Under the pieces are notes generated by a model. It was not told where the DNA came from, searched no databases, and saw only the letters and a list, made by a program, of their open reading frames with translations. A DNA stretch of 52,495 bases, from assembly GCA_016870975.1 (NCBI GenBank), contig VGAE01000010.1, positions 1 through 52,495 of the forward strand, in the 5' to 3' direction. Of this stretch, positions 8,196-40,886 are shown in pieces. The stretch comes from Actinomycetota bacterium (GTDB lineage: Bacteria; Actinomycetota; Actinomycetes; Nanopelagicales; Nanopelagicaceae). Positions within the stretch are counted from its first letter, which is position 1. The number at the start of each line of letters is the position of its first letter. The translations under genes were made by a program, and so were the position numbers.

Positions 8196-8975
8196 ATGGA
8201 AGCTAAGCGTTATATCAACATGACAACATTTGATGAAATCGTTACATTATTGGGATCGGAGGCAGATAAACCAAATTCCGTTTCTAAAGTTACGACGCTA
8301 CTTTTGGATTCAGGGATTGAGTACGAAAAGATCAAGAGTTCTCTTAAAAAGCGAACTACAAATTCACTATTGATTTGCCTTACAGGTCTCCCTGGCGCCG
8401 GAAAGTCATCGATTCTGAATTGTCTCTTAAAGCATAAAGATTTAATCAATTTCAAAGCAGCAGTTTTGGCATTCGATCCTTCTTCAAAAAAAGGAGGAGC
8501 GCTATTAGGCGATCGAATAAGACTGACGAGTGAACGTCCAGAGGATTCACTATTCTTTCGTTCAGTAGGACATAGAGGAAGTCTTACAACACTTCCAAGT
8601 AATCTTGACGCAATTATGGCAGCGTTGTTTCATTTTGGATATGACATCGTATTTGTGGAAACGGTCGGACTGGGACAGACCCAAGATAGTCTTCCGGAGA
8701 TTTTCGATTTGATTGTGAACGTACAAACACTTACCAACGGTGACGAAATACAATTTGCAAAGTCTGGACTGATAGAAACTGGCGATGTAATATTCTTTAA
8801 CAAAATAGAGAATGGACAGAATTTGAATCTCGTCAATGTCTTCAAGCAGCAACAGATGGCAAGTATCTCTGACGAGAGCAAACCGGCCAAGGTTCTCTCG
8901 GGATCTGCCCTTCAGAATCAAGGAATTGATGACTTAGTCTCAGAGATTATGGCTCTTCGTAATAGGGTGAAGTGA
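8196..8975 (+). CDS. meaB: MeaB/ArgK-like GTPase (B12 mutase chaperone)
   Basis: 259 residues, shorter than the usual 320 or so. A Walker A GLPGAGKSS (64-72), AFDPSSKKGGALLGDRIR (92-109) and VETVGLGQ (154-161) identify the MeaB/ArgK G3E GTPase family. MeaB proteins load adenosylcobalamin into B12-dependent acyl-CoA mutases and eject damaged cofactor. The G4 motif, normally NKAD, reads NKIE (202-205), which may change base recognition. Its GTG-coded 3' end overlaps the B12-binding subunit gene. ATG 8220 is an alternative start. Confidence 0.85.
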   Translation: MEAKRYINMTTFDEIVTLLGSEADKPNSVSKVTTLLLDSGIEYEKIKSSLKKRTTNSLLICLTGLPGAGKSSILNCLLKHKDLINFKAAVLAFDPSSKKGGALLGDRIRLTSERPEDSLFFRSVGHRGSLTTLPSNLDAIMAALFHFGYDIVFVETVGLGQTQDSLPEIFDLIVNVQTLTNGDEIQFAKSGLIETGDVIFFNKIENGQNLNLVNVFKQQQMASISDESKPAKVLSGSALQNQGIDDLVSEIMALRNRVK

Positions 8976-9415
8976 ATATGACGAATAGCCATTCCGGAGC
9001 CAAGGAGATTCCATCAAGAGTCTTGATTTCCAAGATCGGACTTGATGGACACGATAGGGGTGCCTTAATTGTCTCTAGGTATCTAAAAGATCAAGGTTAT
9101 GAAGTAGTTTATTCAGGGCTCCACAAAACTCCAGCTGATGTTGCCTCTATAGCACTCCAGGAAGATGTGCAAGCTATCGGACTTTCCATCCTCAGTGGTT
9201 CACACCTTCCCTTGATTAAGCAATTGAAGACTGAGCTAGAGAATCGAAACATTAATTCAGTAATTATCTTTGTCGGAGGAACAATTCCAAAAGCAGATGA
9301 AGCGCCGCTTCGTGAACTCGGTGTTGATGGAATATTCCCAACCGCTACGCCATTATCAAAAATTGGTGAATGGTTGAAGGATGAACTACAAAAAAGAAAA
9401 AGTCTTAAAAACTAG
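8972..9415 (+). CDS. B12-binding small subunit of an acyl-CoA mutase
   Basis: 147 residues forming one cobalamin-binding domain. GLDGHDRG (23-30) is the DxHxxG motif whose His is the lower ligand of cobalt. SILSGSH and GGTIPKAD are the other cofactor-loop motifs. Such stand-alone subunits pair with a separate TIM-barrel large subunit in isobutyryl-CoA, 2-hydroxyisobutyryl-CoA and some methylmalonyl-CoA mutases. The only large subunit in the window lies at 19542, 10 kb away. GTG 8972 overlaps the meaB-like stop as GTGA; ATG 8978 is an alternative. Its stop shares the palindrome CTAG with the convergent SDR gene. Confidence 0.9.
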   Translation: MNMTNSHSGAKEIPSRVLISKIGLDGHDRGALIVSRYLKDQGYEVVYSGLHKTPADVASIALQEDVQAIGLSILSGSHLPLIKQLKTELENRNINSVIIFVGGTIPKADEAPLRELGVDGIFPTATPLSKIGEWLKDELQKRKSLKN

Positions 9416-10179
9416 TTAGCCATCAATCGTCCGCCGTTAACATCAAGCACGGCGCCGGTGATGTAGGAAGAGGCTTCGCTGGCAAGGAAAAGAACCGGCT
9501 CTACACATTCCTCGATGCGCGGCATTCTCTTAAGCGGAATTCCATCAAGAACCTCTTTCTGTTCAGCTGGTGACATCGCATCAAACATTCCTTGAAGTCT
9601 TCCGGTTAGAAAAAGTCCAGGAGCTATTGAATTAACGCGAATGCCATCTCCGCCAACTTCACGCGCTAAGCGTCTCGTTAAACCGATAATTCCAGCTTTG
9701 GCAGCTGCGTATGCGACTCCGGTGACAGGACTTGCACTTCTTCCTCCAATAGAGGAAAAGGTAACGATGGAGCCACCGCCCCGTGACTTCATTGCAGGAA
9801 TGACTGCTTTCGCGCAGTGAAAGGTTCCCTTGATGTTTACATCGATTACTAAATCTAAGTCTTCTGCAGAAATATAATCCAAGTCTCTTGGGGTTCCAAG
9901 TGATCCTCCGGCTGCAGCGATCAAAATATCAATGCCGCCGAATTTAGAGATAACTTGAGCGACGGCCTCTTCAACTGATTCTTGGCTGCGAACATTTACA
10001 ACTTTGCCTAAAGCTTTCTTGCCATCAAGCGTCGATACAAGATTTGTAATCGCCTCAGAGTTGGTGTCGAAGATTGAAACGGTGGCACCTTCTTCAATCA
10101 GAGCTAGAACAATCTCGGCTCCAATTCCGCCCGCGCCGCCTGTGACGAGCGCAACCTTTCCATCGAACCTATTTTTCAT
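9412..10179 (-). CDS. SDR-family oxidoreductase
   Basis: 255 residues of a classical short-chain dehydrogenase. TGGAGGIG (13-20) binds the nucleotide, an Asp after beta-2 (IFDTN) suggests NAD(H), and the catalytic set is S in TFSSIGG with YAAAK. The substrate is unknown. Its divergence from the 2-aminobenzoyl-CoA monooxygenase/reductase across a 44-bp gap suggests it acts on a cyclic or ring-opened hydroxy/oxo-acyl-CoA of the anthranilate pathway. Its last codons overlap the B12 subunit gene. Confidence 0.85.
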   Translation of the reverse strand: MKNRFDGKVALVTGGAGGIGAEIVLALIEEGATVSIFDTNSEAITNLVSTLDGKKALGKVVNVRSQESVEEAVAQVISKFGGIDILIAAAGGSLGTPRDLDYISAEDLDLVIDVNIKGTFHCAKAVIPAMKSRGGGSIVTFSSIGGRSASPVTGVAYAAAKAGIIGLTRRLAREVGGDGIRVNSIAPGLFLTGRLQGMFDAMSPAEQKEVLDGIPLKRMPRIEECVEPVLFLASEASSYITGAVLDVNGGRLMAN

Positions 10180-10190
10180 TCTTGCGATAT

Positions 10191-10202
10191 CCCTTCGAAG
10201 GG
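10191..10202. promoter_or_regulatory. Perfect palindrome in a divergent control region
   Basis: CCCTTCGAAGGG is a perfect 12-bp palindrome lying between the SDR start (10179) and the GTG start of the monooxygenase (10224). The intergenic gap is only 44 bp, so a dimeric regulator bound here could control both directions. No regulator gene is present in the window. Confidence 0.4.
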
Positions 10203-10223
10203 CTCAAGGGTATCCTTCCACGC

Positions 10224-12620
10224 GTGAAGATTCTGTGCATCGGTGGCGGACCCGGCGGTCTCTACTTCGGACTATTGATGAAAAAGCAGAATCCATCACA
10301 TCAAATTACAGTCGTAGAGCGTAATCGACCTTATGACACCTTTGGCTGGGGCGTTGTATTTTCTGATGCGACGCTCGCTAACTTTGTTCGCGCAGATGAA
10401 GAGACGGCGCGCGAAATTCTTGGCTCATTCAACCATTGGGACGATATTGATGTTCATTTTAAAAATAAGAGCATTATTTCTGGAGGCCACGGTTTCTGTG
10501 GCATAGGACGGAAGCGATTGCTCAATATTCTTCAGGAGCGTTGCGAGCAACTTGGCGTTGAATTGGTATTTGAGACTGATGTCAAAGATGATCAAGAGCT
10601 AGCACTGAAATACGACGCCGATATTGTCATAGCTTCTGATGGACTAAATAGTGCAATTCGAACCAAGTATGCTGAAACTTTTCACCCTAATGTACAACTC
10701 AGAAATTGCAGATTTGTTTGGCTCGGAACTAAGAAGGTTTTTAAAGACTTTACTTTTCTTTTCGAAGAAACTGAGCATGGTTGGTTTCAGGCGCACATTT
10801 ACCAGTTTGATGGAGACACATCTACATTTATCGTAGAAACTCCAGAAGAGACCTGGCTTAAAGCTGGAATAGATAAGATGAGTCAAGAAGAAGGAATTGC
10901 TTTCTGTGAAAAACTCTTTGCGAAGCAATTAGATGGAGCAAGACTTCTCAGTAATGCGTCACACTTACGTGGCTCTGCCATTTGGATTAAGTTCCCAAGA
11001 GTCATCTGCCAGAATTGGATTCATTGGAATGAAATAAGAGGTAAGCGTTATCCGACGATTTTGTTGGGCGATTCGGCTCATACGGCACATTTTTCGATCG
11101 GCTCAGGTACGAAACTTGCGATGGAAGATGCGATTGAACTTGCCAAGGCGTTCGAAAGCGTAGACAAGGGTCAAGCATCAATCGAATCAGCTCTGGCTAA
11201 TTATCAAGATACCCGGTCTATTGAAGTCTTGAAGATTCAATCTGCTGCGAGAAATGCGATGGAGTGGTTTGAAAACGTTAAGCGATATGAGCATATGCAG
11301 CCACAACAGTTCAATTACTCTCTCCTTACTCGAAGCCAGCGAATTGGACATGAGAATTTAAGATTAAGAGATAAGAAGTACCTTGAAGAATATGAGAGTT
11401 GGTTCGCCACAAAAGCTTTTGCTGATGCTGGCCTAGCACTTCCAAAATCTGGAGCAAAAATTCCTCCCATGTTTACGCCTCTTAAAGTGAGAGATCTGGT
11501 CCTCAAGAATCGAATAGTGGTCTCTCCAATGGCCCAATATTCGGCTAAAGATGGAGTTGCGGGTGATTATCACCTGGTGCATCTCGGCGCGCGCGCGATG
11601 GGTGGAGCAGGCTTAGTTTTTACAGAGATGACTTGTGTTACTGCTGATGCCCGAATTACTCCGGGCTGTCCAGGAATGTACACAAAGGAACACACCGATG
11701 CTTGGACCCGAATTGTTGACTTTGTACATAACAACACCGATGCCAAGATTGCGCTACAAATTGGCCACGCTGGTGCAAAAGGTGCAACCAAATTAGCTTG
11801 GGAAGGAATAGATAAGCCGGTAGAAAAAGATGGCTGGCCGCTCGTCTCAGCTTCCGAACAACAATATCTCGAGGGAATATCCCAGAAATCTAGAGCAGCA
11901 ACCAAAGAGGATTTGGAGCGCATTAAGGCTGATTTTGTACGCGCCACAATTGAGGGCTATAAATGTGGATTCGATTGGTTGGAATTTCACGCAGCGCATG
12001 GATATTTCATTTCCTCTTTTATTTCACCACTTACGAATAAGAGAACCGATGAATATGGCGGTTCACTCGAAAATAGGTTGCGTTACCCAATAGAAGTTTT
12101 TAAAGCGATGCGAGCCGCATGGCCGAAAGGCAAGCCAATGAGCGTTCGTATTAGCGCGCACGATTGGGTCGATGGTGGAATAACCCCTGATGATGCCGTA
12201 GAAATTAGCCGTGCATTTAAGGAAGCAGGCGCAGATTTCATCGACGTTTCATCGGGTCAGGTATCAAAAGAAGAGAAACCTGTATTCGGTCGCATGTTCC
12301 AAACGCCATTTGCAGATCGAATTAGAAATGAGGCAGGAATTTCGACAATAGCGGTTGGTGCGATCTCTGAAGCAGATCACGCAAATACCATCATTGCAGC
12401 AGGTCGGGCTGATTTATGCGCGGTAGCAAGACCACATCTTGCAAATCCTGCGTGGACATTAATGGAGAGTGCGAAGTCCGGTTTCTTAGATATCGGCTGG
12501 CCAAAGCAGTATCTCTCCGGCAAGGTGCAACTTGAGAGAAATCTCGAGCGCGAGAAATTAATTGCGGAGGCGGCTAAATCAAGTATGACCTTTGAGGAGA
12601 TCCAAGCCAAATTTGGCTAG
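10224..12620 (+). CDS. 2-aminobenzoyl-CoA (anthraniloyl-CoA) monooxygenase/reductase
   Basis: GTG 10224 is chosen because it starts right at the FAD-binding strand VKILCIGGGPGG; a TTG at 10182 would add 14 unrelated residues. The 798-residue protein is a fusion. The N-terminal flavin hydroxylase resembles salicylyl-CoA 5-hydroxylase (GGGPGG at 7-12, FGWGVVFSD, GDSAHTAHF near 285). From about residue 416 an Old-Yellow-Enzyme domain follows (MAQYSA, HLVHLGARAMGG, HAAHGYFISSF, TDEYGGSLENR). In Azoarcus evansii this architecture hydroxylates and reduces 2-aminobenzoyl-CoA to 2-amino-5-oxocyclohex-1-enecarboxyl-CoA using O2 and NADH. The Trp-catabolic context supports that substrate; salicylyl-CoA is the main alternative. 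Confidence 0.9.
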   Translation: MKILCIGGGPGGLYFGLLMKKQNPSHQITVVERNRPYDTFGWGVVFSDATLANFVRADEETAREILGSFNHWDDIDVHFKNKSIISGGHGFCGIGRKRLLNILQERCEQLGVELVFETDVKDDQELALKYDADIVIASDGLNSAIRTKYAETFHPNVQLRNCRFVWLGTKKVFKDFTFLFEETEHGWFQAHIYQFDGDTSTFIVETPEETWLKAGIDKMSQEEGIAFCEKLFAKQLDGARLLSNASHLRGSAIWIKFPRVICQNWIHWNEIRGKRYPTILLGDSAHTAHFSIGSGTKLAMEDAIELAKAFESVDKGQASIESALANYQDTRSIEVLKIQSAARNAMEWFENVKRYEHMQPQQFNYSLLTRSQRIGHENLRLRDKKYLEEYESWFATKAFADAGLALPKSGAKIPPMFTPLKVRDLVLKNRIVVSPMAQYSAKDGVAGDYHLVHLGARAMGGAGLVFTEMTCVTADARITPGCPGMYTKEHTDAWTRIVDFVHNNTDAKIALQIGHAGAKGATKLAWEGIDKPVEKDGWPLVSASEQQYLEGISQKSRAATKEDLERIKADFVRATIEGYKCGFDWLEFHAAHGYFISSFISPLTNKRTDEYGGSLENRLRYPIEVFKAMRAAWPKGKPMSVRISAHDWVDGGITPDDAVEISRAFKEAGADFIDVSSGQVSKEEKPVFGRMFQTPFADRIRNEAGISTIAVGAISEADHANTIIAAGRADLCAVARPHLANPAWTLMESAKSGFLDIGWPKQYLSGKVQLERNLEREKLIAEAAKSSMTFEEIQAKFG

Positions 12621-12635: not shown

Positions 12636-13433
12636 TTAGCGGTATGGCGAGAAATCTGGTGGGCGCTTCTCGGTAAAGGCTTTTCCGCCTTCCTTCGATT
12701 CATCTGTTGCGGTATACAAATCCAACACATCAAAAGCTAGAGATTGAATTCCCATAATATGATCGGTATCTGCGTTAAATGAATGTTTTAGAGCCTTGAT
12801 AGCGGTAGGAGATAAAGCAACAACTTTCTTCGCCCACTCCATTGCCGATTCCATTAATTTATCAGCAGGAACAACTCTATTTACTAGCCCCCAACGTTCT
12901 GCAGTAGTGGCGTCATACTGTTCGCAAAGGAACCAAATTTCGCGGGCTCTTTTCTCACCAACCACTCGCGCCAGGTAAGCAGATCCGAAACCAGCGTCGA
13001 ATGATCCAACGCGTGGCCCAACTTGGCCAAAACGCGCACTCTCGGAAGCAATAGATAGATCAGCTAGAACATGTAGGACATGGCCACCGCCTATTGCAAA
13101 TCCATTTACGGCTGCGATTACCGGCTTTGGGATTGCACGAATTATTTTATGGAGAGATTCAATTTCAAACATTCCAGTTTCAGTCTCACCGTAATTACCT
13201 TTTTCGGCCCGTTCCTTTTGATCGCCGCCGGTACAGAAGGCTTTCTCGCCCGCGCCTGTAAGAATTACCGCTCCAACTTTTTGGTCCACCCAAGCAAATT
13301 TGAAAGCCGATAGCAGTTCATCAACAGTGCGGCCACGAAGCGCGTTATACCGATCAGGTCGATTAATTGTTATTGTGGCGACGCCGTCGCTAATTTGATA
13401 CTTGATATCAGTGAAGTTGGCTTTTTCAATCAT
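12636..13433 (-). CDS. BadI/MenB-type crotonase, proposed ring-opening hydrolase
   Basis: 265 residues of the crotonase superfamily. FCTGGDQ (66-72), IGGGH (114-118) and FGQVGPRVGSFDAGFGSAYLA (136-155) place it in the clade of BadI (2-ketocyclohexanecarboxyl-CoA hydrolase) and MenB (DHNA-CoA synthase), not among ordinary enoyl-CoA hydratases. BadI opens a cyclic beta-keto thioester to pimelyl-CoA. Some residues (GGGHVLH, SFD) are MenB-like, but no menaquinone gene is nearby. The neighbourhood suggests ring opening of the dearomatised anthranilate intermediate. It sits 36 nt downstream of the thiolase gene and should be co-transcribed with it. Confidence 0.82.
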   Translation of the reverse strand: MIEKANFTDIKYQISDGVATITINRPDRYNALRGRTVDELLSAFKFAWVDQKVGAVILTGAGEKAFCTGGDQKERAEKGNYGETETGMFEIESLHKIIRAIPKPVIAAVNGFAIGGGHVLHVLADLSIASESARFGQVGPRVGSFDAGFGSAYLARVVGEKRAREIWFLCEQYDATTAERWGLVNRVVPADKLMESAMEWAKKVVALSPTAIKALKHSFNADTDHIMGIQSLAFDVLDLYTATDESKEGGKAFTEKRPPDFSPYR

Positions 13434-13469: not shown

Positions 13470-14660
13470 CTAGACTCGAATTGCAATTGCTACACCGAGA
13501 CCTACGCCGATACATGCGGCCGCGATGCCGATGCCGCCGCCACGTCTTCGTAATTCTCGTGTTGTATCAACTATGACTCGTGCCGCAGAAGCGCCAACCG
13601 GATGGCCAATCGCAATAGCTCCCCCATTTACATTTACTCTGTTGCGATCGATCTCAGGAAGTTCCTTCAAAACTGTAAGTACCATAGAAGCAAAAGCTTC
13701 ATTGATTTCCCAGATTTCAATATCTTTAAATGAGAGCAAGAGTTTTGAAAGAAGTCCGTTGATTGCATCAACCGGAGCCAAGCTAAATTCATCAGGAGAG
13801 CGAGCAACCACTTTACTTCCTAGAATTTCACCAAATCCACCCGAAAGATTGCTATCGATTGCTAAATCTTTGATGCCAGACTCATCCGTTAACAACATTG
13901 TGACAGCGCCATCGTTTATCGGAGAGGAATTGCCTGCGGTACCGGTGCCTCCCTCGGAGAACACTGAAGGTAGATCTGCCAACTTTGCAAGTGAGGTGTC
14001 TGTCCTTATCGACTCATCTCGAGTTAAGCCTCCGAATGGAAATACAAAACCATCGTGGAATTTTGAATTCCATGCTCGGTCGGCCAATTGATGTGAGCGC
14101 AAGGCCCATTCATCTTGTTCGACTCGAGATATTCCTAGTTTTGCGGCGACTTTTTCTGAACACCTGCCAAGACTCTCCGTCCAGTTACCTGGAAAATTTG
14201 GATTAGTCATTCGCCATCCGACCGTAGATTGATTTAGTTCGCCAATTTCAACTTTCTCTGGAAATTTCTTTTCAGTTCTTCGCACAATCCACGGAGCTCG
14301 CGACATGGATTCAACTCCACCAGCTATTAAAAACTTAGTGTCACCGGTCTTAATTGCTCGAGAACCTTGTATGACTGCCTCCGCACCCGACCCACAGAGA
14401 CGATTAATGGTTACTCCGGGAACTGTTTCAGGAAGTCCAGCAAGCAGTGCGCCCATGCGAGCAACATTTCGATTATCTTCACCCACTCCATTTGCATCTC
14501 CAATAACTACATCATCAATTTTGTTCTTGTTTAATGATGGAGTTTTCGCAACCAATTCTCGTATGGTTGCTCCGAGTAGGTCATCTGGGCGAATATTTGA
14601 GAGCGCACCGAAGTGTGCGCCGAATGGTGTTCGAGCGGCCTCTGCAATGAAGACCTTCAT
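13470..14660 (-). CDS. Acyl-CoA thiolase, beta-ketoadipyl-CoA-thiolase-like
   Basis: ATG 14660 starts the canonical MKVFIAEAARTPFG; earlier in-frame codons add non-homologous residues. 396 residues. Catalytic C89 lies in NRLCGSG, NEAF is present, H353 in AIGHPVG, and C383 near the end. GEDNRNVARMGALLAGLPE and AGGVESMSRAPW closely resemble PcaF-type enzymes, which cleave 3-oxoadipyl-CoA into succinyl-CoA and acetyl-CoA. In this locus it is the likely last step of anthranilate carbon breakdown. It is followed by the BadI-like gene on the same strand and diverges from the SDR-RidA-ligase operon. Confidence 0.9.
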   Translation of the reverse strand: MKVFIAEAARTPFGAHFGALSNIRPDDLLGATIRELVAKTPSLNKNKIDDVVIGDANGVGEDNRNVARMGALLAGLPETVPGVTINRLCGSGAEAVIQGSRAIKTGDTKFLIAGGVESMSRAPWIVRRTEKKFPEKVEIGELNQSTVGWRMTNPNFPGNWTESLGRCSEKVAAKLGISRVEQDEWALRSHQLADRAWNSKFHDGFVFPFGGLTRDESIRTDTSLAKLADLPSVFSEGGTGTAGNSSPINDGAVTMLLTDESGIKDLAIDSNLSGGFGEILGSKVVARSPDEFSLAPVDAINGLLSKLLLSFKDIEIWEINEAFASMVLTVLKELPEIDRNRVNVNGGAIAIGHPVGASAARVIVDTTRELRRRGGGIGIAAACIGVGLGVAIAIRV

Positions 14661-14706
14661 GGGGATGATTATCCCTGATAAGTTAAGGCTCTCAGACAAT
14701 TGAAGG

Positions 14707-15498
14707 ATGGGAAGCTCGGTGAGCAACAATCAGCAACAGTTACGCGTGCTCATTACTGGTGCTGGACGCGGAATCGGCCGCGCAATCGTGAGCGAGCTCA
14801 AGACCTCTCCTCTAAAACATAAGATTGCAGTAACCGCTAGAACTGAATCCGAATTACAAGAGTCAATTAAAGGCGCAACTGGCGAGACTTTGGTTGTAGC
14901 TGCAGATTTGCTTGATCCAAAATCACCTTCTCTGATTATTGATAGTGTTGTAAAGAAATTTGGCGGATTAGATTTTCTAGTTTTAAATGCAGGAGATGGA
15001 GCATCTGCCAAAATTGAAGGAACTGACGACGCGTTATGGCATCGAACAATGGAATTGAATGCAACTGCGCCATTCCGATTCATTCGAGCGGTGGCCCCAA
15101 TCATGCGTAATCAAGGCGGCGGAAAGATTGTGATCGTGGCGAGCGAAGCAGGACTTCAAGGCGCTCCAAATGTCGCCGCTTACACTGCATCAAAGCACGC
15201 TATCGTTGGATTAATGCGTAGCGCAGCTGCAGAATTATCTCGAGACGAGATTAAAGTAAATGCAGTCTGTCCAATCTTTGTAGACACCCCGATGATGCAA
15301 CGAAGTGTCCAAGCGGCTGCTGCGAGAACTGGTAAAAGCGTTGAAGAAGTGAGGACCACCTTGGCTTCACGCCAACCAGGTGGCCGAGTCCTAAAACCAG
15401 AAGAAGTTGCCTCTGCGGTAACCTCATATTTGAATGTTGAAACTACTGGTGAGGCTAAATACCTAGACGGAAGCAAAACGAACGGAGCAACTAAATGA
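14707..15498 (+). CDS. SDR-family oxidoreductase
   Basis: 263 residues; TGAGRGIG at the N-terminus, an Arg after beta-2 (VTARTESEL) that suggests NADP(H), and catalytic S in VASEAG with YTASK. ATG 14707 touches GAAGG; GTG 14719 with GGGAAG at a 4-nt spacing may be the real start. First gene of a tightly coupled plus-strand operon (SDR, RidA, ADP-forming synthetase, CoA ligase, mutase). The substrate is unknown; a ketone of the dearomatised ring or its open-chain acyl-CoA is plausible. Confidence 0.85.
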   Translation: MGSSVSNNQQQLRVLITGAGRGIGRAIVSELKTSPLKHKIAVTARTESELQESIKGATGETLVVAADLLDPKSPSLIIDSVVKKFGGLDFLVLNAGDGASAKIEGTDDALWHRTMELNATAPFRFIRAVAPIMRNQGGGKIVIVASEAGLQGAPNVAAYTASKHAIVGLMRSAAAELSRDEIKVNAVCPIFVDTPMMQRSVQAAAARTGKSVEEVRTTLASRQPGGRVLKPEEVASAVTSYLNVETTGEAKYLDGSKTNGATK

Positions 15499-15890
15499 CC
15501 TTCGAGCGAATCAATTCAGAGAATCTTACTGCCCCAATTGGCTTTTCGCATGCTGTAGCCGTTACCGGCAAGAAGATTGTTTTTCTAGCCGGACAAACTT
15601 CTATGGAACAGGGTGGAGCAATTGTTGGAAATGGCATTGTCGAACAATTTGAACGGGCGCTTTCAAATCTTTTGATTTCACTCAAAGCATCAGGTGGTAC
15701 TCCTAATTCTTTAACAAAACTAACCATTTTTTCTGTCGATCCGGAAGATTATCGAGCTCATGCCAAAGAGATCAGAGTGGTCTGGAAGCGATTAGTAGGT
15801 CGAGATTATCCAGCTATGACGCTGGTCGGAGTCACGAGATTATGGGACAAAGAAGCGCTAGTCGAAATTGAAGGGTATGCCGCGATCTAA
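15495..15890 (+). CDS. RidA/YjgF family, proposed enamine/imine deaminase
   Basis: 131 residues; starts ATGA over the SDR stop. R115 in GVTRLW matches the substrate-carboxylate Arg of RidA (R105 in Escherichia coli numbering), and VEIEGYA carries the conserved Glu. RidA enzymes hydrolyse reactive enamines and imines to ketones and ammonia. The predicted monooxygenase/reductase product is a 2-amino-cyclohexene thioester, itself a vinylogous enamine. A dedicated RidA inside the operon is therefore a good candidate to release the amino group. Confidence 0.85.
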   Translation: MTFERINSENLTAPIGFSHAVAVTGKKIVFLAGQTSMEQGGAIVGNGIVEQFERALSNLLISLKASGGTPNSLTKLTIFSVDPEDYRAHAKEIRVVWKRLVGRDYPAMTLVGVTRLWDKEALVEIEGYAAI

Positions 15891-17947
15891 TGTCGCAGGC
15901 AATAGCAAATCTCTGGCGTGCTAAATCAATCGCCATAATTGGCGCTTCGGCGCGCGAAGGAGCAATGTCGCGACTTCCAATATCTTATTTAAAGAAATAC
16001 GGATTCAAAGGCGAGATCTTTCCTGTTAACCCTAAAGGTGGCGAGATTGCCGGAATTACCGCCTATAAATCAATAAAAGATATTCCTAAGAAAATTGAAT
16101 TAGCTCTAATAATGGTTCCAGTGGATGCGGCTAAATCTGCCGTTAGAGAATGTGGTGAAGCTGGGGTTTCTATTATCACTGTGATGGGTTCCGGTTTTGC
16201 TGAGAGCGGTGAATCTGGCAAGCAACTTCAAGATGAGATCATTGCGATAGCAAAAGAATATGGAATGCGAGTAGTCGGGCCTAACTGCATCGGCTCAATT
16301 GGAAGCGAAGCAAAGCTCTTGGCCACCTTTTCACCTGTCTTCGCTTCGGATTCAACTGAGTTGGCGAAAAGTGGGTTAGCGCTAGTGAGTCAATCTGGAG
16401 CGCTTGGTTATGGAACTTACTCTCTTGGTGTTGATCGATCACTTCCCATTGGAATTGTCGTCACGACTGGTAACGAGGCGGATGTAACAGCACTAGAAGT
16501 TGCAAAAACTATCGCAGATGACAAATCCATAACTGGTTTGTTGATCTACGCAGAATCCATCGATGATTTAAGTGCACTGGAATATTTTGCCAAAGCAAAG
16601 CCAACCGCTATCTTGAAATCAGGTCGATCTGAAGCTGGTGCCCGCGCAGCTGAATCACATACGGGCGCACTAGCAACAAGTGATCGAGTGATGGATGCGG
16701 CAATAAAGCGTGCTGGCGCCGTTAGAGTAAATGATGTTGAAGAGTTGCTTGACGCTGGCGCCATTTTTGCAACCAAGAAACGATTAGCTGGAAATCGAAT
16801 TGCAGTAATCACAACCTCGGGTGGTAGCGGAATACTCGCGGCTGATGCGATAGAAAAATATGGCCTGCAGTTAGCCCAACTATCGAAGAAAACAAGGGAT
16901 GAACTTGATCAAATAATTCCTGCCTACGGCTCTTCGGTCAATCCAGTCGATTTGACTGCGGCCGTTATGGCCGATAAAAAGCTATTCAAGAAAGCAATCC
17001 AGGTATTAAGCCAGGATCCTGGAATCGATGCAATTGTTGCCGCCTTCTGTGTACTTGTTGGTGATGATGTAGAAATGATTGCAAATACCTTAAAGTCGAT
17101 AAATTTCGAAGCAGGCGAAAAACTCCCGATTGTTATTGCGCGAACCGGATCACCATCACTTGCGCCCTCGGCTGTAAAACTATTTATCGATGCTAACTTA
17201 CCGACTTTTCCAGTTCCCGAGCGAGCTGTTAGAGCGCTATCAATTTTGAAAGATGCTACTAAATCAAAAAGGAAAACTAGTTACAGAACACCGATCACAT
17301 CCGCTATTCCAGAACCGAAATCGGGAGTTACTGAAAAGGAACTTAAGGAGCTATGGCGCCAATCAGGAATCTCAGTGCCAGAAAATGTACTAATTGAAAA
17401 TTCCGCTAGAGCGAGCGAGGCGGTTAAGTCAGTTGGAGGCCGGGCGGTTATGAAAGTGGTTATCCCTGGAGTCATACATAAGACGGAAATTGGAGGTGTG
17501 CTTCTTGATATTGATGAAAAGACGGCTGAGAATTCAGCAGCAAAATTGTTATCGCTTAGTGAAGATGCGAAAGTTATGGTTGAACGGTTCATTCCCAAAG
17601 GAGTAGAGGCTTTGGTGGGTGTAACAACTTCTTCTATTGGAAAAGTGCTCACCGTTGGAGTGGGAGGCGTCCTTACAGAAGTCATTCGTGATTCAGCTAT
17701 AAGAATTCTTCCGGTGAGCAAGGATGACGTTGAAGAGATGTTGAATGAAACACGTTTAGGGCAGTTAATTGAGGGAGTTCGTGGGGAGAAGCCAGGAAAT
17801 CGAACCGCTTTGGTTGAGACTATCCTTCGCATAACTGATGCAACCGAGAAGTGGCAGGGAGATTTTGAATTAGATGTAAACCCAGTAACGATAACCGCCG
17901 AAGGTGCCTGGGTCCTTGATAGTGCTTATATCAGACGCGAGAATTAA
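15890..17947 (+). CDS. ADP-forming acyl-CoA synthetase (fused alpha-beta)
   Basis: 685 residues. The N-terminal CoA-binding domain (IAIIGASAREG, VGPNCIGSI) is followed by succinyl-CoA-ligase-like domains with the phospho-His H257 in ESHTGALA, then a C-terminal ATP-grasp region (residues about 460-685; MKVVIPGVIHKTEIGGV). These enzymes interconvert acyl-CoA, ADP and phosphate with free acid, CoA and ATP. Here it could activate a pathway acid or conserve energy from a product acyl-CoA. ATG overlaps the RidA TAA by one base. Confidence 0.88.
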   Translation: MSQAIANLWRAKSIAIIGASAREGAMSRLPISYLKKYGFKGEIFPVNPKGGEIAGITAYKSIKDIPKKIELALIMVPVDAAKSAVRECGEAGVSIITVMGSGFAESGESGKQLQDEIIAIAKEYGMRVVGPNCIGSIGSEAKLLATFSPVFASDSTELAKSGLALVSQSGALGYGTYSLGVDRSLPIGIVVTTGNEADVTALEVAKTIADDKSITGLLIYAESIDDLSALEYFAKAKPTAILKSGRSEAGARAAESHTGALATSDRVMDAAIKRAGAVRVNDVEELLDAGAIFATKKRLAGNRIAVITTSGGSGILAADAIEKYGLQLAQLSKKTRDELDQIIPAYGSSVNPVDLTAAVMADKKLFKKAIQVLSQDPGIDAIVAAFCVLVGDDVEMIANTLKSINFEAGEKLPIVIARTGSPSLAPSAVKLFIDANLPTFPVPERAVRALSILKDATKSKRKTSYRTPITSAIPEPKSGVTEKELKELWRQSGISVPENVLIENSARASEAVKSVGGRAVMKVVIPGVIHKTEIGGVLLDIDEKTAENSAAKLLSLSEDAKVMVERFIPKGVEALVGVTTSSIGKVLTVGVGGVLTEVIRDSAIRILPVSKDDVEEMLNETRLGQLIEGVRGEKPGNRTALVETILRITDATEKWQGDFELDVNPVTITAEGAWVLDSAYIRREN

Positions 17948-17974: not shown

Positions 17975-19537
17975 GTGGATGTCGGAACGATAGTTGCTCG
18001 CTCAATGCGGCGATATCGCGATCGCATTGCACTTGTCGGTCCCGACGGTACCAAGACTTACGGCGAAGTAGGATCAAGAATTTTTCAATTGGCTCGTGCG
18101 CTTCGCTCTTTAGGACTTGAGACAGAAGATCGAGTACTTGATCTGCAATCGAATCAAAACACTTATATTGAGACTGATTTAGGAATCTCCTCATCAGGTC
18201 TTTGCCGTGTTGCTTTGAATTATCGACTACATCCAAATGACTGGGTTCGCATCACTAAAGATTGCGGTGCCAAAGTACTAATCCTCGATGCGAAATTTTG
18301 GGATGACGCAGCGCCAGTTCGTGAATTCGTTGAACATATTATCGTCATTAATGGTGACGCCCAGGGCGCTATCCCCTACGAAAAGTTCCTTACGAAGGAA
18401 TCAACAGAACCACTCAAAATTGATATCTCTCCCGATACTTTGGTTTCTCTCAACTACTCCAGTGGGACAACCGGAAATCCAAAAGGAGCGATTCGCACAC
18501 ATAGAAATAGAATGGTAAGTCTCGGAAATATCGTCACCGATATTTTCGGGCGTACGCCAAACGAGAATGACATCTGGGTGCACGCAGGTCCAGTAACTCA
18601 TACCAGCGGCCTCTTTGTGCTGCCCTTCTTCACTTTCGGTGCCAAGCAAGTCATCCATGCTAAATATGAACCAGAGTTACTTTTGGAAGAAATTGAGAGT
18701 CGCGGAGCAAATGCAACGGCGCTCGTCCCGACTATGGTCGCAAGGCTATTGACGCTAGACGGAATTTCTCCCGATAGATTTAAAAACTTAAAGATGCTCG
18801 GTTATGCCGGCGCCCCAATGACACCTGAACAGATTCGAGAATGTTTCGAAAATATAACCACCCATATGGTCCAGTATTACGGATTGGTTGAAGCTATCCC
18901 ACCGGTAACAGTCTTGAGTGAGGCCGACCATAGGTTGGGCTTAGAGAAATCGCCCGAAGTCTTAACCAGTGCGGGAAATCCCTGTACCACCGTTGAAATC
19001 AAAATAGTTGATGATTCGGGTAACGAGGTAGCGAATGGCGAAATTGGTGAAGTGATTACTCGCGGCGATCTCGTGATGCGTGGATACTACGGCGCAGCAG
19101 GTAGTGATCCGAACGTAACAAAAGTTGTCCGAGACGGCTGGTTACATACCGGGGATTTAGGTCGACTAGATAGCGATAATCGACTCTATCTTGTAGATCG
19201 AAAAGGCGACATGATTATTAGCGGTGGTTACAACATCTACCCGCGTGAAATAGAGGATGTCATAGCCGAAGTATCTGAGATAAATGAAGTCGCTGTATTG
19301 GGCGCACCTGACAAAGAGTGGGGACAGCGTGTTACAGCGTTTGTTTCTCTTAAACCGAATTCCACGTTAGACGAGAAGATTGTTGTTGAGAATATTCTTG
19401 AGCACTGCAAATCCAAGATGGCCTCATACAAGAAACCGAAGGATGTTTTTGTTGTAAAAGAGTTTCCACTGAACTCAACAGGGAAGATTTCCAAGAAAAC
19501 ATTGAAATTACAGCTCGAGAAAGATCGCGGAGTCTAA
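17975..19537 (+). CDS. AMP-forming acyl/aryl-CoA ligase, probable anthranilate-CoA ligase
   Basis: GTG 17975 is preceded by AAGGGAG at a 6-nt spacing. 520 residues of the ANL superfamily: YSSGTTGNPKG (P-loop), GYAGAPM, YGLVE, DGWLHTGDLG, VDRKGDMIISGGYNIYP and the C-terminal catalytic Lys in NSTGKISKK. These enzymes form acyl-AMP and then acyl-CoA. Specificity cannot be read from the sequence by eye. Placement between the RidA/monooxygenase group and the mutase, in a locus that makes anthranilate, makes 2-aminobenzoate-CoA ligase the simplest assignment. A fatty-acid ligase is the alternative. Confidence 0.8.
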   Translation: MDVGTIVARSMRRYRDRIALVGPDGTKTYGEVGSRIFQLARALRSLGLETEDRVLDLQSNQNTYIETDLGISSSGLCRVALNYRLHPNDWVRITKDCGAKVLILDAKFWDDAAPVREFVEHIIVINGDAQGAIPYEKFLTKESTEPLKIDISPDTLVSLNYSSGTTGNPKGAIRTHRNRMVSLGNIVTDIFGRTPNENDIWVHAGPVTHTSGLFVLPFFTFGAKQVIHAKYEPELLLEEIESRGANATALVPTMVARLLTLDGISPDRFKNLKMLGYAGAPMTPEQIRECFENITTHMVQYYGLVEAIPPVTVLSEADHRLGLEKSPEVLTSAGNPCTTVEIKIVDDSGNEVANGEIGEVITRGDLVMRGYYGAAGSDPNVTKVVRDGWLHTGDLGRLDSDNRLYLVDRKGDMIISGGYNIYPREIEDVIAEVSEINEVAVLGAPDKEWGQRVTAFVSLKPNSTLDEKIVVENILEHCKSKMASYKKPKDVFVVKEFPLNSTGKISKKTLKLQLEKDRGV

Positions 19538-19541
19538 GAAA

Positions 19542-21020
19542 ATGGAGACCCCTGGCCAATTCCCATACACACGAGGCATTAAGGCCGAACCTTCGGTTTG
19601 GACTATGGGCCAATACGGTGGCTTTGGAACACCGCAAGAGACCAATCAACGTTTTAAAACTCTTCTTGAACAAGGCTTAACTGGCTTTAGCGTGGCTTTA
19701 GATCTTCCAACACAACTGGGCCTTGATTCAGATCATCCTCGTGCCCTCGGAGAAGTAGGTCGTGTGGGTGTCGCGATTGATTCGCTACGTGATATCGAGA
19801 TTCTAATGAATGAAATTCCACTTGAAAAAATTAATCAAGTACGAACTACTGCAAATTCGATTGGGTATATCTGGGCGGCGATGTTTATAGCCCTAGCGGA
19901 AATTAGAGGAGTTAATCCAAATAATTTTGGGATGTTCATTCAAAATGATGTACTCAAGGAATACATAGCAAGAGGTACACAGATTTTTCCGGCTGAAGCT
20001 GGTCTAAAACTCTCGGTTGACGTAATCGAATATGTTTCTGCCCATGTACCAAAGTGGGTTCCGCTAGCAATGAGCGGTTACCACATACGTGAATCCGGAT
20101 CTACGGCAGCTCAAGAAATTGCATTCACGTTTGCAAATGCCCAGGAATATCTTGATGCCGCAATAGCAAGAGGTGTTTCGGTAGACCAAGTTGCACCGAC
20201 TCTTTTTACATTCCTTTCTTCTCATATCGAAATTCTTCAAGAAGTCGCTAAATTTAGAGCAGCTCGCAGAGTTTGGGCCCAATTGATAAGAGAGAAATAC
20301 CAAGCTAAAGATCCTCGTTCAGAGCAACTACGGATTTTTGCTTTTACTGCTGGATCATCGCTGACCTATCAGCAACCGATGAACAATGTGACAAGGACAG
20401 CCGCTGAGATGGTGGCCGCAGCATTAGGTGGAATCCAAACTATGCACGTCTCGGCTTATGACGAAGCTCTAGGTGTGCCTACTCAAGATGCTGCAACGCT
20501 CGCACTCCGCACCCAGCAGGTAATCGCTTTCGAGACAGATCTTCTAAAAGTAGCTGATCCTCTCGGAGGAAGCCCGTACATCGAGGGATTAACCACTCAG
20601 TTATGCGATGAGATTTGGGGACTGCTTAAGGAAATTGAGAATCGAGGTGGCGCTCTTTCCTGCGTAAATAGCGGTTGGTTCAGTAAAGAGTTATCGGAGC
20701 GCGCATATCGTTTCCAACAATCAATTGAGAATGGCGAGCGAATATTGGTTGGTGTTAATAAATTTGAGACTGACGAAGAAGAGAAATTTGTGCCCTTTGC
20801 AATTAATCCCGATAGCGAACGTGCCCAAGTATCGGCTCTCCAAAGCCTTAGAAGCTCTAGAGATGCTCTAAATGTTGAAAATTCTCTAAAGAAACTTCAT
20901 GAAGATGCTAAAGCCAATTTGAATGTTATGCCGGCAACAATCGAAGCGATCAAAGCTTATGCAACTGTGGGTGAAATAGTCTCCGTCTTATCTTCCGTTT
21001 ACGGAACTTGGAAACCTTAA
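19542..21020 (+). CDS. B12-dependent acyl-CoA mutase, large subunit (divergent)
   Basis: 492 residues related to the methylmalonyl-CoA mutase TIM-barrel subunit: FPYTRG, DSDHPRALGEVGRVGVAIDS, IQNDVLKEYIARGT, SGYHIRESGSTAAQE, TRTAAEMVAAALGG. It begins almost directly at FPYTRG, so the usual N-terminal arm of about 50 residues is missing. The following segment is about 3 residues shorter than usual and lacks the TMY-x-R-x-R-P/L-W substrate-loop residues (it reads IKAEPSVW). Y25 (= Y89), R144 (= R207) and Y180/H181 (= Y243/H244, Propionibacterium numbering) are kept. Probably pairs with the B12 subunit at 8972 and rearranges a pathway-specific acyl-CoA. Its stop shares TTAA with the next, convergent gene. 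Confidence 0.88.
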   Translation: METPGQFPYTRGIKAEPSVWTMGQYGGFGTPQETNQRFKTLLEQGLTGFSVALDLPTQLGLDSDHPRALGEVGRVGVAIDSLRDIEILMNEIPLEKINQVRTTANSIGYIWAAMFIALAEIRGVNPNNFGMFIQNDVLKEYIARGTQIFPAEAGLKLSVDVIEYVSAHVPKWVPLAMSGYHIRESGSTAAQEIAFTFANAQEYLDAAIARGVSVDQVAPTLFTFLSSHIEILQEVAKFRAARRVWAQLIREKYQAKDPRSEQLRIFAFTAGSSLTYQQPMNNVTRTAAEMVAAALGGIQTMHVSAYDEALGVPTQDAATLALRTQQVIAFETDLLKVADPLGGSPYIEGLTTQLCDEIWGLLKEIENRGGALSCVNSGWFSKELSERAYRFQQSIENGERILVGVNKFETDEEEKFVPFAINPDSERAQVSALQSLRSSRDALNVENSLKKLHEDAKANLNVMPATIEAIKAYATVGEIVSVLSSVYGTWKP

Positions 21021-22543: not shown

Positions 22544-22585
22544 GACCTCTATCTTGCCATGTGAAATCCCGCTTAGATAGGCCTT

Positions 22586-24232: not shown

Positions 24233-25006
24233 TTAATTAGCAACCAAAGCCAAAACTCGACATGGACTGCCCGAGCCTTTAACAATCTTCAATGGTGCAG
24301 CAATAACAATGGCTCCGGTCGTCGGCAACTTATCTAAGTTGCGGAGTTGCGTTAGGCCGTACTTGTTATTGCCAAGGAAGAGCGAATGGCATGGAAACGG
24401 AGTTGAGAATCCAAAGGCGGCGCCAGCATCAGTTCCAACTGTTTCAACGCCCATTCCGAGAATCTCCGTCTTAGTTGCAAAATATTCTGCAGCAGCCACG
24501 GAGAGACCTGGGGTATGCGGGCCATTGGCATCAGCATTCGCATACTTCGCAGCATCTTCACCAAATTTTGACCAACCAGTTCGGAACATGATCCAAGCAT
24601 TTTTAGGAATTGCTCCGTTTTTCTCTTCCCAAGCTTTGATGTGTGGAACATCAAGCAGAAAGTCTGGATTGGCTTCTACCTCTTTGGTGAAGTCCAAAAC
24701 ACAAACCGGTCCGATGAGTCGTTGCGCAGGAACCTGTGAAACATCATCGAGATTCTTTCCAGTAACCCAGTGAATTGGTGCATCAAAGTGGGTGCCTGTG
24801 TGCTCACCGGTGTGGAAGTTGTTCCAGTACCAAGCTGGACCTCGATCGTCATAGCTAGAGATCTCTTCTAACTTAAACCGGGCTGTCTGGCCCATTGGTT
24901 CTGGCAACATCAAAATTGGAGTGTTCTCATCTAGTGGCGCAGTTAGGTCAACGACCTTAACTGAGCCGGCAACGATCTCCTTGGCGAGAGCGGATAAATC
25001 AGCCAT
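24233..25006 (-). CDS. kynB: Cyclase-family hydrolase, probable kynurenine formamidase
   Basis: ATG 25006 follows AAGGAGAT at a 6-nt spacing, the best ribosome binding site in this region. 257 residues with HTGEHTGTHFDAPIHW, the metal-binding H-x-G-T-H-x-D-A-P motif of bacterial kynurenine formamidase (KynB) and related cyclases, and a later H in PFPCHSLFLG. The enzyme hydrolyses N-formyl-L-kynurenine to kynurenine and formate. With tryptophan 2,3-dioxygenase in the same island this assignment is favoured over isatin or carbonate-type cyclase homologues. Confidence 0.8.
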   Translation of the reverse strand: MADLSALAKEIVAGSVKVVDLTAPLDENTPILMLPEPMGQTARFKLEEISSYDDRGPAWYWNNFHTGEHTGTHFDAPIHWVTGKNLDDVSQVPAQRLIGPVCVLDFTKEVEANPDFLLDVPHIKAWEEKNGAIPKNAWIMFRTGWSKFGEDAAKYANADANGPHTPGLSVAAAEYFATKTEILGMGVETVGTDAGAAFGFSTPFPCHSLFLGNNKYGLTQLRNLDKLPTTGAIVIAAPLKIVKGSGSPCRVLALVAN

Positions 25007-25183
25007 CAATATCTCCTTAATCGGGGCCTTCCGGAGACCCAATCGAGAGTACAAGATGTCACCAATTCGATATCTCCACAAGGGGGTTTCCACTAGACAT
25101 GGCGCACACCATTAGCGAGACTTCCCCATGTCCAGGCTAGGCAGATGCCCAGCCAGGTTAGTTAGCCGCATAAGGGGAGTAAA

Positions 25184-33708: not shown

Positions 33709-33804
33709 GCGACCAGGTCAATGTTTGCCCGAGGTGATTCTTATCAAAGGGTTGCGCTCTCACGCCTGAATCAGGTTTATCAGGCCCTAGGAGGGCGCAG
33801 AGCG

Positions 33805-34530
33805 TTGAAGTATTCTGATGCTATGTCATACGGCGCGGATCAAATACTGACGGGTCAGGGAAATAGCGATTACGAGCGCTATATAAGAACGGTTGATTTA
33901 CTCAAACTACAACCGGAGCCAGATAGTTGGAAGCATCGAGACGAATTGTTGTTTACTATCGTTCATCAATCCTCCGAGCTTTGGTTGAAATTAGCGGTCG
34001 CGGAATGTGATGAAATCGTTATCAAACTTAAGTCTGGAGATATCCTGGCAGCACTTCGTTTGATGCCACGAATTCCACTCTGCATCACGAATGCGACCAT
34101 TGCCTTGGACATGTTGGAGCAGATGTCGCCATGGGACTATCAACAAGTTCGCCGGGCGCTCGGTCATGGCTCAGGTTTTGACTCGCCTGGTTTTAACGCA
34201 ATCCGCAGAGCAATTCCAAAATTGGGAGTCGAATTCTTCAGAATCTTAAATGAAGCAAAGATCACGCTGCTTCAAATGTATGTCAATCATGAGAAGCATG
34301 ATGAGATCTATCGACTTGCTGAATCGCTCGTTGAAATTGATGAGCGACTTATTACCTGGAGAGCGCGCCATTTCAAGGTTGTTGAGCGCAGCATTGGGCT
34401 ACATGTCTCTGGAACTCAGGGCACGCCGGTCGAAGTTATCGGAAAGTTAAGGGATAAGACTTTCTTTCCAGAATTTTGGGATGTCCGAACCGAGATTACA
34501 AATTACGCACTATCCGAAGAGAATAAATAA
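33805..34530 (+). CDS. kynA: Tryptophan 2,3-dioxygenase
   Basis: TTG 33805 is preferred: GGAGGG lies 9 nt before it, and it starts shortly before MSYG, the usual TDO beginning. ATG 33823 and ATG 33721 are alternatives. About 241 residues. RDELLFTIVHQSSELWLKL, LGHGSGFDSPGF and RARHFKVVERSIG match the heme dioxygenase: substrate-pocket residues, the GSGF-SPGF loop, and the proximal heme His in RH. The enzyme converts L-tryptophan and O2 to N-formylkynurenine in the cytoplasm. It is the first step of the island's proposed pathway and stands as a single plus-strand gene. Confidence 0.93.
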   Translation: MKYSDAMSYGADQILTGQGNSDYERYIRTVDLLKLQPEPDSWKHRDELLFTIVHQSSELWLKLAVAECDEIVIKLKSGDILAALRLMPRIPLCITNATIALDMLEQMSPWDYQQVRRALGHGSGFDSPGFNAIRRAIPKLGVEFFRILNEAKITLLQMYVNHEKHDEIYRLAESLVEIDERLITWRARHFKVVERSIGLHVSGTQGTPVEVIGKLRDKTFFPEFWDVRTEITNYALSEENK

Positions 34531-40179: not shown

Positions 40180-40886
40180 GTAAATCATTATTAAAGATGG
40201 AGAATGTGGATACCTTCTACGGCTCTATTCACATTCTCCAGAAGGTGAATCTAGAAGTTGGCGTAGGCGAACTGGTATGTCTTCTAGGCGGAAATGCTTG
40301 CGGTAAATCAACCACTCTTAAAACAATTCTCGGGATTGTAAAACCAAAAGCTGGAACCATTACTTTTGCTGGCGAAGATGTAACAAAAGTAGGCACTCCT
40401 GGTCGAGTAAAGCTAGGAATGGCTGTTGTTCCTGAGAATCGACGCCTCTTTGCTCCGATGACGGTATTGGAAAATCTAAAATTAGGCGCATACGTGCTCG
40501 GTGAGGCAGATCCTGCTGATTTAGAGAGAGTTTTCGAACTATTTCCAAAACTTCGCGACCGCCAGAGTCAACTAGCGGGAACTTTATCTGGTGGCGAACA
40601 GCAGATGGTTGCAGTAGGACGCACCCTAATGTCTAGACCAAAATTGATTCTCATGGATGAGCCATCGATGGGATTAGCGCCAAAGTTCGTTGAACAGAGC
40701 TTCGAAATGATCTCAAATCTTCATAAGAGTGGCGTCTCAATGTTGGTTGTCGAACAAAACGCAAATATGGCTCTGGCCATCGCAGATCGAGGCTACGTAC
40801 TCCAGACCGGGCGAGTAGTATTAACAGGAAGCGCACAAGAGCTATCAGGTCATGAGGAGTTACGAAAGGCATACCTTGGACGTTAA
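40176..40886 (+). CDS. livF: Branched-chain-type ABC transporter ATPase (system 2)
   Basis: 236 residues. Walker A GGNACGKST (an unusual NAC in the loop), VPENRRLFAPMTVLENL, signature LSGGEQQMVAVGRTL and Walker B LILMDEPSMGL. ATG overlaps the livG stop as ATGA. The kynureninase-like gene begins inside or just after its 3' end, so transport and catabolism are coupled. Confidence 0.93.
   Translation: MSKSLLKMENVDTFYGSIHILQKVNLEVGVGELVCLLGGNACGKSTTLKTILGIVKPKAGTITFAGEDVTKVGTPGRVKLGMAVVPENRRLFAPMTVLENLKLGAYVLGEADPADLERVFELFPKLRDRQSQLAGTLSGGEQQMVAVGRTLMSRPKLILMDEPSMGLAPKFVEQSFEMISNLHKSGVSMLVVEQNANMALAIADRGYVLQTGRVVLTGSAQELSGHEELRKAYLGR

Follow-up and report, generated by a model that had tools for sequence, protein, structure and literature searches.

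A Rid protein encoded close to a 2-aminobenzoyl-CoA monooxygenase/reductase (ACMR) gene is a dedicated component of the aerobic 2-aminobenzoyl-CoA (anthranilate) pathway. We infer that it probably acts there as the deaminase of the ACMR product, 2-amino-5-oxocyclohex-1-enecarbonyl-CoA. The association of the Rid and ACMR genes across genomes is not due to chance, and this co-occurrence identifies the pathway rather than the reaction step. The Rid gene lies in a stretch of 52,495 nucleotides (hereafter the window), whose closest records are Nanopelagicales (acI) MAGs.

The Rid open reading frame lies exactly where the initial annotation had placed it, and its 131-aa product belongs to the Rid (YjgF/YER057c/UK114) superfamily by its match to PF01042 (Table 1). 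Against NCBIfam TIGR00004 the protein scored 44.1 bits, under the cut-off of 106.25. The AlphaFold2 model (pLDDT 85, pTM 0.80) has the Rid fold, with Z scores of 15-16 to the RidA, YabJ, RutC and AmnE structures. The start codon overlaps the stop codon of the upstream SDR gene (ATGA, 15495-15498) and the stop codon is shared in part with the start codon of the next gene, which encodes the ADP-forming acyl-CoA synthetase (TAATG, 15888-15892), making the translational coupling described in the initial annotation plausible. That annotation had further placed the Rid gene in an anthranilate operon. The Rid gene does belong to the anthranilate cluster, with ACMR about 3 kb away, but the BadI-like and thiolase genes that separate them run on the opposite strand, so ACMR is part of a neighbouring unit and not of the Rid operon. 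Promoter and terminator scans gave sites no more numerous than in shuffled sequences. Two branched-chain-type ABC transporter sets are found in the surroundings of the cluster.

Table 1. Features of the window and the evidence for their assignment.
Feature	Coordinates	Strand	Evidence
MeaB-like GTPase (mutase chaperone)	8196..8975	+	PF03308 147.7 bits
B12-binding mutase small subunit	8972..9415	+	PF02310; TIGR00640 130 bits, over cut-off
SDR oxidoreductase divergent from ACMR	9412..10179	-	Conserved beside ACMR in Nanopelagicales loci
2-aminobenzoyl-CoA monooxygenase/reductase-type fusion (flavin monooxygenase + old-yellow-enzyme domains)	10182..12620	+	NF006101 1339.8 bits (cut-off 1078)
Crotonase nearest MenB/BadI, candidate ring-opening hydrolase	12636..13433	-	badI 325.7, menB 333 bits, both below equivalog cut-offs
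Thiolase, 3-oxoadipyl-CoA thiolase-like	13470..14729	-	TIGR01930 over cut-off; pcaF 372.1 bits, below cut-off 597
SDR oxidoreductase; candidate reductase of 5-oxo group or opened-chain oxo group	14707..15498	+	PF00106/PF13561
ACMR-associated Rid-family protein, 131 aa; Met108 at Arg105 position, Glu124 at Glu120 position	15495..15890	+	PF01042 68.8 bits (cut-off 27.3), AlphaFold2 fold, residue mapping
ADP-forming (NDP-forming type) acyl-CoA synthetase	15890..17947	+	CoA_binding_2, Succ_CoA_lig, ATP-grasp_5
AMP-forming acyl-CoA ligase, candidate 2-aminobenzoate-CoA ligase	17975..19537	+	PF00501
B12-dependent acyl-CoA mutase large subunit, altered active site	19542..21020	+	PF01642 571.9 bits; best PDB match 4r3u HCM
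Cyclase-family hydrolase, tentative N-formylkynurenine formamidase	24233..25093	-	PF04199; TIGR03035 only 27.9 bits
Tryptophan 2,3-dioxygenase-like, divergent; candidate supplier of kynurenine route	33721..34530	+	PF03301 98 bits; TIGR03036 136 bits, below cut-off
Class-V aminotransferase fold, tentative kynureninase	40852..42030	+	PF00266; kynureninase model 74.6 bits, below cut-off

The association of Rid with ACMR was examined in 80 ACMR loci taken from species-representative genomes, together with 40 neighbourhoods sampled within the phylum of the window. Flanks of 9 kb or more on each side were available for 57 ACMR loci, and 55 of these encode a member of one Rid subfamily. The median distance from ACMR is 3.4 kb, and 50 of the 55 Rid genes share its strand; from the number of Rid genes in each genome, only 0.02-0.10 would be expected per 20 kb by chance. 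In L038 and L097, the two exceptions, the Rid gene is found at a greater distance, on the contig of ACMR or elsewhere in the genome. Whole-genome searches of the ACMR genomes seemingly without a nearby Rid gene (L097, L123, L136, L137, L139, L140 and others) located one elsewhere in all of them.

The phylum sample was one fixed draw of 396 genomes, 48 of which, spanning 32 genera, encode ACMR at a threshold of E at most 1e-100. A subfamily profile (A1) built from 30 ACMR-linked Rid proteins gave scores of 128 bits or more in 52 genomes, among them each of the 48 with ACMR, while every other Rid protein in the set scored 94 bits or less; the window protein scored 152.7 bits. The overlap between the Rid subfamily and ACMR has a Fisher p of ~1e-57, a figure uncorrected for kinship. 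Since no sequence from 28 of the 48 ACMR genomes is in the profile, these genomes are independent of it. In the four extra Rid-positive genomes (G178, G269, G317 and G327), the genes surrounding Rid again encode a ligase, an acyl-CoA dehydrogenase, an enoyl-CoA hydratase and an SDR; ACMR was not found in these four even on a repeat search at a loose threshold, and the contigs of three of them end inside the cluster. One of the four, G269, is 93% complete and carries the ACMR-type Rid gene among its usual neighbours (L241); the lack of ACMR in this genome would be explained by a gap in the assembly or by a different enzyme taking its place.

The pairing extends beyond this sample. In a set of 80 genomes of relatives, subfamily Rid was present in 9/9 ACMR genomes. 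It likewise adjoins ACMR in Pseudomonadota, and the pair is carried on plasmids of Aminobacter, Limnohabitans, Ensifer, Paracoccus and Deinococcus. In the haloarchaeon Haladaptatus, a divergent Rid relative (114 bits) is located beside an ACMR of 40% identity. On the Arthrobacter plasmid pAL1, from which the anthranilate-CoA ligase has been biochemically verified (PMC3534580), subfamily Rid is encoded 4.5 kb from ACMR.

By profile score, the ACMR-linked Rid proteins form a distinct subfamily, which we propose here and which is compatible with one clade. Eleven genomes carry between 3 and 32 Rid genes each; in these, the ACMR-linked copies scored 145-200 bits with the pathway model and their paralogs 76 bits or less. 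A tree of 82 sequences, resting on 118 columns and poorly resolved with many forks open, did not reject a single clade for the ACMR-linked proteins (p-AU 0.72), and the constrained tree had the higher likelihood. The genome of the window encodes three further Rid paralogs, all of which keep the catalytic Arg. Together with the tracking of ACMR by the subfamily, this upholds the earlier view that the Rid protein belongs to the pathway and is not a housekeeping copy.

To locate the catalytic residues, E. coli RidA, taken from its genome record, was aligned with all Rid sequences. The catalytic Arg105 of E. coli RidA aligns with Met108 of the window protein. Among 99 ACMR-linked proteins this position is Met in 91, Ile in 4, Val in 2, Ser in 1, Leu in 1 and Arg in none, compared to Arg in 33 of 59 other Rid proteins of the same genomes. 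R115, which the initial annotation had proposed for mutation, aligns with E. coli R112. Only 21 of the 99 relatives have Arg at this position and most have Gly or Ala; the alignment rules R115 out as the catalytic Arg. Glu124 (E. coli Glu120), Gln51, Tyr86, Gly102 and Ala121 are invariant in the subfamily; in Salmonella RidA, exchange of the Glu for Ala changed little. By the residues that define RidA and Rid1-3, the window protein thus lacks the Arg105 equivalent and has the Glu120 equivalent.

Replacement of Arg105 nearly abolishes RidA activity (PMC4433059) and the equivalent residue is required in RutC (PMC8113886). The published rule makes the Arg a requirement and denies deaminase activity to Rid groups that lack it (PMC4433059, PMC5619798, PMC8113886); every Arg-less Rid protein assayed so far was inactive, the substrates in those assays being imino acids (PMC8113886). 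Under this criterion no deaminase activity is predicted for the window protein. The Arg is, though, the residue that binds the substrate carboxylate (PMC4433059). Because the carboxyl group of the ACMR product is masked as a CoA thioester and needs no salt bridge, the change of Arg105 to Met fits, in our reading, a switch to this substrate.

The ACMR product is 2-amino-5-oxocyclohex-1-enecarbonyl-CoA according to PMC4539516, which cites Schuhle 2001. The enamine expected in the initial annotation thus agrees with the literature, and its assignment to Rid as the deaminase is the part against which Met108 speaks. ACMR converts 2-aminobenzoyl-CoA to this compound, a beta-enamino thioester. In the proposed reaction, Rid, a predicted trimer with active sites at the subunit interfaces, would then add water at C2, and loss of ammonia would give 2,5-dioxocyclohexanecarbonyl-CoA. 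This beta-oxo thioester could be opened by a crotonase hydrolase or a thiolase. A CoA ester of a C7H8O4 acid, possibly cyclohexanedione-carboxyl-CoA, was found in anthranilate-grown Arthrobacter Rue61a (PMC3534580), and C7H8O4 is the formula of the proposed deaminated product. As a formic-acid quench was used in that extraction and the enamine is unstable below pH 5 (PMC3534580), this ester may be a product of the extraction.

The genes downstream of this step differ between lineages. In most lineages the lower-pathway genes encode an acyl-CoA dehydrogenase, an enoyl-CoA hydratase and an SDR, to which Aminobacter adds a hydroxyacyl-CoA dehydrogenase and a pcaF-type thiolase. Nanopelagicales and two further actinobacterial lineages have a BadI-like hydrolase, a thiolase and a B12 mutase instead. 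Retention of the Rid subfamily with two different lower pathways suggests that its substrate is an early intermediate common to both. The substrate of BadI is a 2-oxocyclohexanecarbonyl-CoA, and the BadI-like gene of the cluster is in line with an oxo-ring CoA ester as the next intermediate.

It is rather unlikely, but deserves weight, that the enamine hydrolyses by itself fast enough and that Rid is otherwise employed in the pathway, for example in binding or tautomerising a CoA intermediate, in isomerising a ring double bond or in regulation. Such a role would agree with the loss of Arg105 throughout the subfamily, given that Arg-less Rid proteins were without deaminase activity in published tests (PMC4433059, PMC8113886), and the uracil pathway still functions in cells without RutC (PMC8113886). 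On chemical grounds, however, a conjugated beta-enamino thioester should hydrolyse slowly at neutral pH, and the enamine is described as unstable only below pH 5 (PMC3534580). The near-perfect retention of Rid across phyla argues for a needed step, and the invariance of Glu124 also speaks against this alternative.

Alternatively, Rid could clear imines or enamines leaked from PLP enzymes or FAD amine oxidases of the tryptophan island, as canonical RidA does. Rid genes cluster elsewhere with such enzymes (PMC4433059), and the window encodes two Amino_oxidase-family proteins (at 21017 and 22586) and a kynureninase-like class-V aminotransferase. We nevertheless regard this damage-control role as improbable: the ACMR-tied subfamily also occurs in clusters whose annotated neighbours include neither type of enzyme (Limnohabitans, Arthrobacter pAL1), and without Arg105 the protein lacks the binding group for imino-acid carboxylates. 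That a housekeeping RidA was caught in the operon by chance would be conceivable, RidA being common with 3 to 32 copies in each of the genomes examined, but this explanation is refuted by the co-occurrence in 48/48 ACMR genomes and the bimodal scores of a distinct subfamily, beside which the window's own genome keeps its three Arg-bearing paralogs. Deamination of the ACMR product by Rid is the reading that we prefer.

The B12 mutase of the window differs from P. shermanii MCM at R87G, F117L, T195F, Q246R and S285F and keeps Y89, Q197, R207, Y243 and H244. The five altered and the five kept positions are common to the 12 cluster mutases compared, one of which has Tyr rather than Phe at 285. Against NF006944, the methylmalonyl-CoA mutase equivalog, the window mutase scored 472.9 bits, under the cut-off of 876. 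A mutase with this altered active site is also linked to the RidA/ACMR module in L249, L250, L251, L252, L254 and L255. Since three genomes (G431, G436 and G450) carry a second, canonical-type mutase, their cluster mutase is unlikely to be an ordinary methylmalonyl-CoA mutase; in the genome of the window, no mutase besides the cluster mutase was found. In the lower route that we envisage for Nanopelagicales, the BadI-like hydrolase would open 2,5-dioxocyclohexanecarbonyl-CoA to 4-oxopimeloyl-CoA, the mutase would turn this into 2-methyl-3-oxoadipyl-CoA, and the 3-oxoadipyl-CoA-type thiolase would split the latter into succinyl-CoA and propionyl-CoA. It is a speculative and doubtful extension that the subfamily represents the first Arg105-less Rid enamine deaminases, with CoA-thioester substrates, and at the same time feeds a new Nanopelagicales lower route via BadI-like hydrolase, B12 mutase and thiolase.

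By its domains and its NF006101 score, the ACMR-type fusion of the window is a 2-aminobenzoyl-CoA monooxygenase/reductase with a putative substrate. NCBI labels the NF006101 family 'bifunctional salicylyl-CoA 5-hydroxylase/oxidoreductase'. On pAL1 (L261), the ACMR gene (26656-29049) comes after the verified anthranilate-CoA ligase gene, and Arthrobacter Rue61a does not grow on salicylate (PMC3534580). This suggests that the salicylyl-CoA name is often misleading. The window ACMR is 71-74% identical to Oxalobacteraceae homologues, and the sequences suggest horizontal transfer between Nanopelagicales and Burkholderiales. In G431 (L250), a genome of the window's own family, the RidA/SDR/ligase/mutase module is 56-73% identical to that of the window compared to only 48% for ACMR, from which ACMR seems to have been exchanged in place while Rid was retained.

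Anthranilate is formed in tryptophan breakdown. The tryptophan dioxygenase-, arylformamidase- and kynureninase-like genes are all divergent and all score below NCBIfam equivalog cut-offs; judged from sequence, they suggest an unusual kynurenine route. A pair of neighbouring genes at 25184-28904 encodes relatives of the subunits of indolepyruvate ferredoxin oxidoreductase (717 and 527 aa, the latter product carrying DUF6537), and Nanopelagicales retain this pair next to ACMR. The Nanopelagicales clusters also retain two divergent FAD proteins (508 and 534 aa, 21017-24190), which are of the Amino_oxidase/phytoene-desaturase type. The B12 mutase and the indolepyruvate-oxidoreductase-like pair led us to consider an indoleacetate-type route via an aminophenylsuccinyl-CoA mutase, which was set aside: anthranilate is the better match for the dioxygenase-, formamidase- and kynureninase-like genes and the CoA ligase, and the mutase remains tied to the RidA/ligase module.

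To our knowledge, available reviews assign no enzyme to nitrogen release in the 2-aminobenzoyl-CoA pathway. The Rid protein provides a named candidate, present together with ACMR in every ACMR genome tested. Its sequence challenges the rule that Arg105 decides the deaminase activity of Rid proteins and offers a defined substrate for an Arg-less Rid group, as well as a hint of function for many 'RidA family protein' database entries. NCBI annotation places a 'RidA family protein' next to ACMR, uncommented, and regulon studies earlier suggested enamine deaminases in benzoate-type pathways (PMC6449761). No link of Rid to 2-aminobenzoyl-CoA was found in the open-access literature, the scope of our search.

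Among known Rid proteins, Rid4-Rid7 (Niehaus et al. 2015, PMC4433059) resemble the ACMR-linked subfamily in having no catalytic Arg and keeping the Glu. Rid4 and Rid7 have Trp at the Arg position and Rid5 and Rid6 variable residues (PMC4433059); the ACMR-linked group may belong to Rid5, to Rid6 or to a new subfamily. Canonical RidA (E. coli and Salmonella RidA, TdcF) shares the fold and the Glu120 equivalent, but has Arg105 where the window protein has Met108, differs by an insertion of ~3-4 residues near 88-91, and scores 51 bits with the subfamily model compared to 145-200 for members. AmnE, the 2-aminomuconate deaminase of aminophenol degradation (PMC6742747), has the Rid fold (6izh, Z 15.3) and likewise performs a dedicated nitrogen-releasing step in aromatic breakdown. 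In contrast, its substrate is an open-chain dicarboxylate formed after ring cleavage, and Arg117 is among its conserved cleft residues (PMC6742747). RutC, the 3-aminoacrylate deaminase of the E. coli uracil (Rut) pathway (PMC8113886), is similar in fold (3v4d, Z 15.4), in its setting in a catabolic operon and in acting on a beta-enamine of a carboxylic acid. It differs in having and needing the Arg (R104) and in its free-carboxylate substrate, compared to the Met and the presumed CoA-thioester substrate of ACMR-linked Rid; the RutC model matches the ACMR-linked relatives at only 21-28 bits (cut-off 169). Collectively, pathway-dedicated Rid deaminases are already known from RutC and AmnE, and what is new here is the Rid subfamily, its near-absolute tie to ACMR and its loss of the catalytic Arg.
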